A program made the translations under genes and the position numbers. Below, piece by piece: positions 35,708 to 39,092 of a stretch of 64,000 bases of DNA. Numbering within the stretch: position 1 is the stretch's first letter; the number at the start of each line of letters is the position of its first letter. The stretch is from Parolsenella massiliensis. GTDB lineage: Bacteria > Actinomycetota > Coriobacteriia > Coriobacteriales > Atopobiaceae. The stretch is taken from the NCBI RefSeq assembly GCF_900143685.1, contig NZ_LT671675.1, positions 1,791,985 through 1,855,984 of the forward strand, in the 5' to 3' direction. Under the pieces are notes generated by a model. It saw nothing but the letters and a program-made list of their open reading frames with translations. It did not search any database and was not told where the DNA came from.

Positions 35708-36619
35708 ATGTTCTGCACGAACTGCGGCAAGCAGCAACCAGACGGCGCAAAGTTCTGTTCGAACTGCGGTACCACCCTAGCGGCGCCAAATCAGGCGACA
35801 ACGGCACCGTCAAACCAGGTCACAACCCAGTTACCTGGTAGAGTCCCGCCAGCGGCTCCAGATCCCATTGCGACCACAGCGCCCCTCCAGGTCCCGGCTG
35901 CGGCACCCAGTCAGGGCTCGTCCGCGACGCCGGGTCAGGCGGCCGCCCCGGCACCGGGCCAGAACTCAAACAAGAGGCCGGAGCGCGGCAGGACCGCAGG
36001 CATCATCGCCGCGTGCGTTGCCATCCTCGCGGTCGCCGGTGCTGCTATCTTCTTCATCACGTCCCCAGGCAAGGGAGAACACGAACCGGCTGCACCCGCC
36101 CCGGCAACCACCCAGGCAGCCACAACCGATGCTGCCACGAACGCCAGCACCCCGGCGGCGACGGCGGACGCCGCTATCCCCGAAACAAGCGCCGCCCCCT
36201 CGGCAAACACGGGAGAAGCCCGCGCCGACGGAGACGTCTCCTATACGGACCCCCACTACGGCTTCCAGCTCAGGCTCCCAGGCGACTACGCCATCACGAG
36301 CGACAGCAGCGACGGCGTGGTCTACTCCAGCACGTCGAGCCAGGTCACCGTCTCCGCCTACGCGACCGCACGCCAGGGCGAGACGCCCGAGAACATCCTG
36401 TCGGGCTATGAGAACAACTATCCTCTCGAATACGAGGCGTCAGGTGACACGTGGTGCGTCGCCTCGTGGAAGAGCGACGGATACGAGTACTACGACAAGT
36501 ACTACGTAACCGACGGATATATCTGCTACTTCAGCTTCAAATACCCGGCGTCTGCGGCCCAGGCGGGCTCCGACCTCATCGAGGCCTACATCCAGTACTT
36601 CAAGCCCGGAACCGAGTAG
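35708..36619 (+). CDS. Zinc-ribbon membrane protein with extracytoplasmic domain
   Basis: A 303-residue protein opening with a zinc ribbon (CTNCGKQQPDGAKFCSNCG, residues 3-21). A disordered Pro/Ala/Gln linker follows, then one membrane helix (about 97-117), an Ala/Thr-rich spacer (about 118-180) and an extracellular domain (YTDPHYGFQLRLPGDY to the end) of the type found in small secreted proteins. The start is 2 bases after yfcE. Function unknown. It shares its zinc-ribbon and membrane-helix design with the convergent gene at 36790. Confidence 0.82.
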   Translation: MFCTNCGKQQPDGAKFCSNCGTTLAAPNQATTAPSNQVTTQLPGRVPPAAPDPIATTAPLQVPAAAPSQGSSATPGQAAAPAPGQNSNKRPERGRTAGIIAACVAILAVAGAAIFFITSPGKGEHEPAAPAPATTQAATTDAATNASTPAATADAAIPETSAAPSANTGEARADGDVSYTDPHYGFQLRLPGDYAITSDSSDGVVYSSTSSQVTVSAYATARQGETPENILSGYENNYPLEYEASGDTWCVASWKSDGYEYYDKYYVTDGYICYFSFKYPASAAQAGSDLIEAYIQYFKPGTE

Positions 36620-36683
36620 CGCCGCGCGCATCCTGGCGTATTTGCCGCGAGGTTTACGGGGCCGCCGTCGCCGCCCTTAAACC

Positions 36684-36747
36684 CATCGTGCCGAACGCAC
36701 CTTATCGAGCCCTCGGGAGGCCCAGATAAGGTGTGCCCGGCACGATG
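36684..36747. repeat. 64-bp CATCGTGCCGAACGC palindrome, copy A
   Basis: CATCGTGCCGAACGCACCTT at the left is complemented by AAGGTGTGCCCGGCACGATG at the right. It lies between the two convergent zinc-ribbon genes. A near-identical copy in the same orientation is at 38240, on the other side of the 36790-38037 gene. Confidence 0.85.
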
Positions 36748-36789
36748 AGGCGGGTGGGAACATGTCGCTCCCACCCGCCTCGCATACGA

Positions 36790-38037
36790 CTAACTTTCGC
36801 TGAAGTACTCCACGTAGCTTGAGCCGTCGGTCTTCACCGAGCCAACGTTGTTGGCAAGGCCATTGAGGAGGGAGCCATCGCTGACAATGACATGGTCGTC
36901 TGCCCCAATTAGGCAGGCACCGTACTGGAAGGAATCCGGCAGTCCAAGATCCGTCTCATCTCCGCCTGCGACCGGGACAGCAAGATAGCCGTCTCCGTCA
37001 GACAGATAGACCGTGTCGTTGTTGGCACCGACGATGTCAATCTCATCATCCGAAACGTCGGTTATCTTCTTTGCGTCAGAGCCATCGGTGTTCATCGACG
37101 CCACATAGTAAGAGTACGCTGAACACGAACGGTCGTGGGCCGCAACGAGCACGCGATCACCCACGACGGTAATGCCCCTAACCGAACCGCCGTCTGAAGA
37201 GAAGATTCTCTTCGTATCGGAGCCATCGATTTTCATGGAGTAAACCGAGGACCCGCCACCGGTGCCATCGTCGGCCTCGTCGTCAGAGTAGTAGACCCTA
37301 TCTCCCGAGAGCGCAACACAGTGGCCGCTAGCGCAGGACATATCGAGATCGAGCTCATTAATAACGTCCGACCCATCCGTCGCCATGCTAACGATGTGCA
37401 GGGAATCCGTTTTGTTCTGATAGGCCTGATAAACGATGTAGATTCGCCCGTCCACAATATAGAGACAGGGGAAGTAGTTGTAATCCGCGTCGAGCGAATA
37501 AAGGGTTTTCCCGTCGGACCCGTCAGCCTTCACGCTCTTGATATCGTAGCTGTCGGCATTCGAGTCATAGCCCGCGTAGAACAGATAGCCGTCAGCGTAA
37601 TTGAGCATCCCCACATAGGTGCTATCAGAAACCGAACAAAGCTGCTTGACGCTTCCGGGGTCATTCGCCTTCGCGCGCTCAAGACCGTTGTCATCGAAAA
37701 AGTAGTCCATGCCGCCTGCCGACACAGCCTGACCCTCGCCAATGGCAATGCTGGTAACAGAATTGCCCATGCCGTTTGCGCCCGCCGCCTCCTTGGCACT
37801 GCCACCCTGCAAGCGAGTAGCCATGAACACGCCAATGGCTACAACCGCTACTACGACCACCGCTATGATCGCGAACGGGACGGGACGCTTGGGGAGAGCG
37901 GCAGTCGGCGCAGGCGCAGCCGCCCCAGGAGCATTGACAGGTGCTGGCGTTGCGGAAACGGGCCCAACCGGCGTCCCGCAGTTGGGACAGAATTTGACAC
38001 CCTCCCCCAAATTGGCGCCGCACTTCGAGCAAAACAT
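36790..38037 (-). CDS. Zinc-ribbon membrane protein with a beta-propeller-like (DUF5050) domain
   Basis: A 415-residue protein. N-terminal zinc ribbon (CSKCGANLGEGVKFCPNCG), Pro/Ala linker, one membrane helix (about 54-74), then an extracellular domain built of repeats: YADGYLFYAGYDSN, YIVDGRIYIVYQ, ALSGDRVYYSDDE, VVGDRVLVAAHD, with DGSD motifs between. These resemble DUF5050-type propellers. GC and codon bias are lower than in most neighbours, and the gene is bracketed by 63-64 bp direct copies of one palindrome, both hints of separate origin. ATG at 38037 follows GGAGGGAG; the GTG two codons upstream is too close. Confidence 0.82.
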   Translation of the reverse strand: MFCSKCGANLGEGVKFCPNCGTPVGPVSATPAPVNAPGAAAPAPTAALPKRPVPFAIIAVVVVAVVAIGVFMATRLQGGSAKEAAGANGMGNSVTSIAIGEGQAVSAGGMDYFFDDNGLERAKANDPGSVKQLCSVSDSTYVGMLNYADGYLFYAGYDSNADSYDIKSVKADGSDGKTLYSLDADYNYFPCLYIVDGRIYIVYQAYQNKTDSLHIVSMATDGSDVINELDLDMSCASGHCVALSGDRVYYSDDEADDGTGGGSSVYSMKIDGSDTKRIFSSDGGSVRGITVVGDRVLVAAHDRSCSAYSYYVASMNTDGSDAKKITDVSDDEIDIVGANNDTVYLSDGDGYLAVPVAGGDETDLGLPDSFQYGACLIGADDHVIVSDGSLLNGLANNVGSVKTDGSSYVEYFSES

Positions 38038-38239
38038 AGGCACTCCCTCCCGCCGCGTTAAGCGGCGCTAGCGCTGAAACGGTCGACGACGCCAACGCTA
38101 TCACCCCCCCCCCGCACTGTTCGCAAGCCCAAATCAAGGTAGAGGGGTGGAGCCTTCGCGCCAACGGTTGGAGCGCACCGGCATCCCCATGGCCCGCCTG
38201 CACCCATCGCCCTGTTTCACGCGTAGCCGCCCTGCCACC

Positions 38240-38302
38240 CATCGTGCCGAACGCACCTTATCGAGTCCTCGGGAGGCCCAGACAAGGCGCTTTCGGCACG
38301 AT
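38240..38302. repeat. 63-bp CATCGTGCCGAACGC palindrome, copy B
   Basis: Shares about 50 nearly identical bases with copy A (36684), in the same orientation, including the centre CTCGGGAGGCCCAGA. Its right arm is more diverged (AAGGCGCTTTCGGCACGAT). Confidence 0.85.
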
Positions 38303-38330: not shown

Positions 38331-38651
38331 CTACGACTTGGCAGATTTCCTCAGTACGCTCTTCCAATTCGAGGACGCGTTATACAAGCGCAGGAAAACA
38401 ACCCTACGGGCACGCGCGTCTATGCGAAACACCGCAACCCTCTTCTTAACCGGCACCCAACGATAATCCGAGCCCTCGACTTGCGGCATAAAGGCAGGAA
38501 AGGAAACCGCCGCATCTTTTGCCTGTTCGAAGGAATCGAGAAAGCTCGCAGCACTCCCCGGCCCCACTTCATGCGCTCGCCAGGCCAGCTCCGTATCCAA
38601 GTCTTCCTCGAAAAGGTTGGTGAGCACGGCCTCGTAGCCCTCAGCAGCCAT
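38331..38651 (-). CDS. RelE/ParE-superfamily toxin
   Basis: A 106-residue protein with the ParE/RelE strand pattern: an N-terminal helical pair (LFEEDLDTELAWRAHEVG, then AASFLDSFEQAKDAAVSF), then YRWVPVKKRVAVFRIDARAR and VVFLRLYNASSNW near the C-terminus. It overlaps the end of the antitoxin gene by 11 bases, as expected for a coupled toxin-antitoxin operon. RelE-type toxins cleave mRNA on ribosomes and ParE-type toxins block gyrase; sequence alone does not tell which applies. Confidence 0.8.
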   Translation of the reverse strand: MAAEGYEAVLTNLFEEDLDTELAWRAHEVGPGSAASFLDSFEQAKDAAVSFPAFMPQVEGSDYRWVPVKKRVAVFRIDARARRVVFLRLYNASSNWKSVLRKSAKS

Positions 38652-38919
38652 ACCTCGACCTCATCTCTGATACGACCTCGTTGGCGGAGCGGGTTTTGCC
38701 GGCCTCTACCTGTCTCTCCGCGTCCGCAATCCCCCGCCAGAACTCCTTTGCCGAAGTCACCTCCGGCAAAGGCGAGGGCATGGAGGCGATGTAGGCGTGT
38801 TCGCCATCCCAGAACCAGTACACGCGAGAGTCATCTGCAATGCCAAGCGCGGTACGGATCTCCTTTGGGACGGTCGTCTGCCCGGCCTTCGTCATCTTTG
38901 TGCTCATCATCGTTACCAT
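38641..38919 (-). CDS. AbrB/SpoVT-family antitoxin
   Basis: A 92-residue protein. The N-terminal swapped-hairpin DNA-binding domain reads TKMTKAGQTTVPKEIRTALG, typical of AbrB/MazE-like antitoxins. The C-terminal helical half (about 50-92) should bind the toxin. The ATG at 38919 follows GGGAGG; other ATGs 9 and 12 bases downstream are less well placed. Upstream is an AT-rich patch (38941-38958, TAATAAT and TATATT on the minus strand) that stands out in this GC-rich window and is a likely autoregulated promoter. Confidence 0.82.
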   Translation of the reverse strand: MVTMMSTKMTKAGQTTVPKEIRTALGIADDSRVYWFWDGEHAYIASMPSPLPEVTSAKEFWRGIADAERQVEAGKTRSANEVVSEMRSRYGC

Positions 38920-38991
38920 GGCAGCCTCCCGCCCATTGAGATTATTAATTTCAATATACCCAACAGCGGCAGCACGGACCAGGCCGAAAGC

Positions 38992-39057
38992 AAACTACGC
39001 AGCATTCGACTCGGCGGCGGCCAAACAGGGCCGTTCAAGTCAAATGCTGCGCAGTTA
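38992..39057. repeat. 66-bp AACTACGCAGCATT palindrome
   Basis: AACTACGCAGCATTCGACT is complemented by AGTCAAATGCTGCGCAGTT (17 of 19 pairs). Single copy here. It lies just past the metA stop and could terminate metA transcription. Confidence 0.7.
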
Positions 39058-39092
39058 GTTACGAGATGGGCTTGCAGCCGCGAGCACGTCCA

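Follow-up and report, generated by a model that had tools for sequence, protein, structure and literature searches.

The window, i.e., the whole stretch of 64,000 nucleotides of Parolsenella massiliensis DNA that was analyzed, contains a predicted propeller gene placed between two copies of a palindromic element, with a second zinc-ribbon gene on one side and a toxin-antitoxin pair on the other. The features of the locus are the following, in window coordinates.

35708..36619, + strand: second zinc-ribbon gene (ZnR2), the 3' end of which forms the border of the locus; internal deletion in the sister species
36666..36683, + strand: 18-bp native flank, repeated before element b; part of the 81-nt direct repeat D1, with 14/18 bases shared with 38222-38239
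36684..36747, + strand: palindromic element a; arms 36685-36705 and 36726-36746
36790..38043, - strand: gene for a predicted zinc-ribbon / TM / beta-propeller protein, 417 aa from GTG, with an ATG at 38037; the sister species is without it
38104..38113: C10 tract (G10 on the gene strand) upstream of the propeller gene; no other C/G run in the window reaches 8
38222..38239, + strand: 18-bp flank, copy two
38240..38302, + strand: palindromic element b; arms 38241-38261 and 38282-38302
38331..38651, - strand: toxin-like gene; weak ParE match (PF05016, E 0.0012, below the cut-off)
38641..38919, - strand: antitoxin-like gene, MazE/AbrB type
38990..39060: palindrome AAACTACGCAGCATT...AATGCTGCGCAGTT of a second, unrelated family, in the antitoxin-metA gap

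The initial annotation had reported two palindromes of 63-64 bp in the same orientation (36684-36747 and 38240-38302) that bracket the zinc-ribbon/propeller gene, and re-checking showed this description to be correct. The two elements are 89% identical over 63 bp, lie in direct orientation with a start-to-start distance of 1556 bp, and both form strong hairpins, with z scores of -4.4 to -8.3 relative to 200 shuffles. Also in agreement with the initial annotation, no further strong copy was detected in the 64 kb window, where the sole extra match reached 13.5 bits, i.e., chance level. The direct repeat is longer than the palindrome and covers 81 bp (36666-36746 and 38222-38302, 86% identity), as the 18 bp preceding the palindrome are also shared, with 14 of 18 bases identical in register (p 1.6e-4 against random window pairs). 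The 18-mer before element a is native flank. Since the repeat runs 18 bp into this flank, a segment of the locus appears to have been duplicated around the gene, as opposed to two independent insertions of the element, although an extension of 18 bp is short and counts against this reading.

The protein encoded by the bracketed gene carries an N-terminal zinc ribbon (PF13240, E 1.6e-8). Its later part was folded from the single sequence with low confidence (mean pLDDT 54), and the top PDB matches of the model were mostly beta-propeller proteins, which points, at low confidence, to a surface-protein-like product combining a zinc ribbon with a beta-propeller. No close relative of the gene was found in the family, and the best full-length matches (26-32% identical) come from other genera. 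Searching the genome contigs with the propeller protein retrieved zinc-ribbon matches only, and this palindromic element was not found at the loci of propeller homologues of other genera. The GC3 of the propeller gene is 0.667, versus 0.79-0.94 in other genes. The earlier statement that its GC is lower than that of its neighbours holds for the propeller gene itself, but the toxin (0.654), the antitoxin (0.763) and ZnR2 (0.78) have low GC3 as well, so that low GC is a property of the whole block. The toxin-antitoxin pair said to follow the gene is indeed present and consists of a MazE/AbrB-like antitoxin and a weakly ParE-like toxin. A C10 run (38104-38113) precedes the propeller start by about 60 nt, and over a dozen places in the window's genome hold C/G runs of at least 9; these runs suggest that phase variation may be possible. 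Outside the window, contig C1 of the same genome contains a near-unbroken poly-C stretch of about 80 bases (positions 1500675-1500757).

In two other genera (G022, taken as outgroup, and G037), metA and the metallophosphoesterase gene lie next to each other in convergent orientation; in G022 the gap is about 10 bp, with no block between them. The order in the window's species is ZnR2, element a, propeller gene, element b, toxin-antitoxin pair, second-family palindrome and metA. In the sister species (G001), the sole other species of the genus among the genomes compared, the order is a ZnR2 remnant, an element with a third arm, the toxin-antitoxin pair, another element with a third arm, and metA. 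The propeller gene is absent, and here it is the toxin-antitoxin pair that has direct copies of the element on both sides. The left flank of element a matches the left flank of the sister's element and the right flank of element b matches its right flank, while the inner flanks of elements a and b match neither. Together with the 18-bp repeat, the matching outer flanks imply that the window locus has one extra segment, made up of the gene and a copy of flank and element. A gene-free, single-element site, which the initial annotation had proposed to look for in relatives, was thus recovered in the sister with the same outer flanks, except for an extra half-arm: the sister's element has a third arm 40 bp away and is therefore not exactly one copy. 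The toxin-side arm of element b occupies the position of this third arm. At the sister locus (L008 9514-10480), the toxin gene has an in-frame stop and the neighbouring zinc-ribbon gene has lost some 770 bp. Identity between the two species in the toxin-antitoxin DNA reaches 94.6%, above the 87-90% of most neighbours.

Members of the element family have inverted arms of about 21 nt (ATCGTGCCRAACGCACCTTAT, starting by inspection with YATCGTGCC) around a variable 20-nt centre, and a single arm can form a small hairpin. A covariance model (R1) was built from 11 members after an arm search and run against 140 genomes of the family. It gave strong matches at five places in the window's genome (G000; 2.0 Mb, one contig) and at nine in the sister, whereas matches in the 138 other genomes stayed below 29 bits, compared to 30-78 bits for those accepted. 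Likewise, a 16-mer arm pattern occurred at about chance counts outside the genus across the 140 genomes. A 20-nt match at G000 1634481, which has the look of coding sequence and of a chance match, was dismissed. Over the 11 elements, 80% of the cells of the 21-bp stem are paired, and the stem arms are 52-88% alike between places. The 20-nt centre, on the other hand, is private to each locus: similarity is 80-95% for the four copies that the two species have at this locus (95% between elements a and b, which share a private centre), 100% in the pair at G001 1729420/1731303, and 10-75% otherwise. A third arm, located 38-40 bp outside and oriented like the nearest arm, accompanies six of nine elements in the sister and none of five in the window's genome. 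No Rfam family corresponds to the element, the only match being a meaningless one to mir-770. Plasmid and phage collections contained no relative of the gene or the element, and viral contigs held no relative of the toxin or the propeller and one isolated arm match without palindrome.

To follow the elements between the two species, the flanks of element places were located in the other genome and the gaps were then compared. Six full sister elements (672775, 1020128, 1193094, 1196478, 1729420 and 1731303; for 1196478 the comparison was one-sided only) have no counterpart in the corresponding gaps of the window's genome, which indicates that the elements turn over. A lone arm of the sister (639054) is also absent from its matching gap, and the element at G000 216183 was not found beside the matching sister gene in a one-sided comparison. 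The gap between the HtrA-like gene and ligA holds an element in both species (G000 1491381 and G001 405429). The palindrome family is low-copy, genus-limited and mobile; no description of such an element was found for this group in the literature searched. The direct copies at G001 1729420/1731303 have two genes between them, one of the zinc-ribbon-YARHG type and one for an amidase, and in the window's genome these two genes are in place with neither element. Other genes flanked by the same palindrome, which the initial annotation had also proposed to look for, do exist in the sister, but the same genes are element-free in the window's species, so bracketing alone is no proof of a cassette. 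In three gaps that carry this family in the sister, the window's genome instead has palindromes from another family (AAACTACGCAGC-; one of the three is degenerate), which the sister is without. This second family (AAACTACGCAGC...GCTGCGTAGTTT) is represented at 38990-39060 and at G000 1211131, 315968, 388634, 1168940, 1219754 and 1242796, and, of the two species, was found only in that of the window.

Genes resembling Y1_Tnp / REP_Tyr_transpos (RAYT-like genes) occur in both genomes, and three were found. They are flanked by short palindromes of their own and none by the 64-mer. The three genes (L108 1347-2084, L109 1107-1877 and L110 1494-2243) have flanking short palindromes TTGACAAAGGGACAGTCCCTTTGTCAA; TGCCAAACGAACCCGTCCCC... 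One RAYT-type repeat, CGTGCCAAACGAACC, is identical to an arm of the G001 672775 element and agrees with the arm variant CGTGCCAAACGCACC at 14 of 15 bases. This recalls the TIR repeats of the RAYT-like genes of TIRYTs and TIRtrons (PMC3733652), where RAYT-like genes are also palindrome-flanked. However, the repeats at the RAYT-like genes of the two genomes are about 30 bp long with another centre, and the 64-mer adjoins no such gene. The element resembles REPINs (PMC3116915) in its inverted arms of about 20 nt, variable centre, intergenic and dispersed location, occurrence as single arms and clusters, and presence/absence between relatives. It differs from them in having 5-9 copies instead of tens to hundreds, no RAYT flanked by a matching repeat and no conserved GTAG. 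As in BIMEs (PMC3733652; REP recognition in PMC8266576), arms are clustered at regular spacing, but the arms differ in sequence from the GTAG/CGTC REP superfamilies (PMC3733652, PMC8266576) and carry neither tag at the arm end. The element works like a REPIN/BIME-type miniature palindrome. Since copy number, GTAG/CGTC tag and cognate transposase do not agree, we do not file it as a member of either group.

How the arrangement arose can be read in several ways. It is possible, but rather unlikely, that the palindromes were inserted independently around a resident gene, which the sister later lost by an unrelated deletion. The sister elements that bracket the YARHG and amidase genes are compatible with such a coincidence, as is the deletion of most of the neighbouring zinc-ribbon gene in the sister. 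Moreover, local clusters of elements are common in the sister (three close pairs among nine elements, p 0.001). It is harder to reconcile with the 18 bp of flank that the two copies share past the palindrome, with their private centre, and with the correspondence between the outer flanks of the pair and the flanks of the sister's single element. Far less plausible is that the elements are transcription terminators of neighbouring genes that are alike by chance. Each element does lie downstream of a gene, and element a sits between convergent genes, but 63 bp of sequence are shared, family members have empty sites in the other species, and a separate hairpin (about 36752-36781) is located beside the propeller stop codon. 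The terminator reading was rejected on account of the missing T run.

The initial annotation favoured a small cassette, i.e., a gene inserted or duplicated together with the element. The duplicated flank and the sister site partly support an insertion or duplication involving the element. A true cassette, in which gene and element would travel together and enter at a resident element by integron-like site-specific recombination, is improbable. On the one hand, the difference between the sister loci is a gene and one element, the sister's toxin-antitoxin pair sits between direct copies at the same locus, and, as in integron cassettes with their attC sites, the gene is accompanied by an imperfect palindrome roughly 60 bp long, with direct copies on both sides. 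On the other hand, no recombinase or integrase ORF was noticed beside the locus and no integron-type core site was seen by eye, most other copies have no gene attached, and the plasmid, phage and viral searches described above also count against it. A portable cassette is unsupported because the family brackets, in the sister, two resident genes that are element-free in the window's species. Furthermore, the members of the element family are scattered over intergenic gaps and move independently of genes, which argues against a dedicated cassette.

We consider it fairly probable that the locus is jointly accounted for by a pair of mobile palindromes, a hot-spot junction, and an event of recombination or duplication at the element that accompanied the arrival of the gene. 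The junction between the metallophosphoesterase gene and metA would be an insertion hot spot, filled in this genus by a low-GC block that comprises a zinc-ribbon gene, the toxin-antitoxin pair and palindromes. The ancestral locus would have carried one element, placed after the zinc-ribbon gene and before the toxin. The window's species has this element and its 18-bp flank in duplicate, one copy on each side of the propeller gene. Most likely, the gene arrived by way of a recombination or duplication event at the element, and mobilization of the element may have occurred in trans by a Y1/RAYT-like enzyme. The same direct repeats would permit precise loss of the gene, and the sister's state fits recombination between two copies. 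Thus, from the sequences compared, the gene was probably gained (or lost) at the locus together with one repeat copy. With only two species compared, gain and loss are indistinguishable, and the low GC3 and the absence of a close gene relative in the family would point to a gain in the window's species.

A broader and more speculative possibility, which we regard as doubtful, is that genes are exchanged at a hot spot by way of the palindromic element. In this view, accessory genes (the propeller surface protein here and the similarly bracketed toxin-antitoxin pair in the sister) would be gained and lost between direct copies by integrase-free recombination, with an arm spacing fixed at about 40 bp. 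If this is true, short mobile palindromes acting as homology would provide a simple, integrase-free route for single accessory genes into and out of one chromosomal site.
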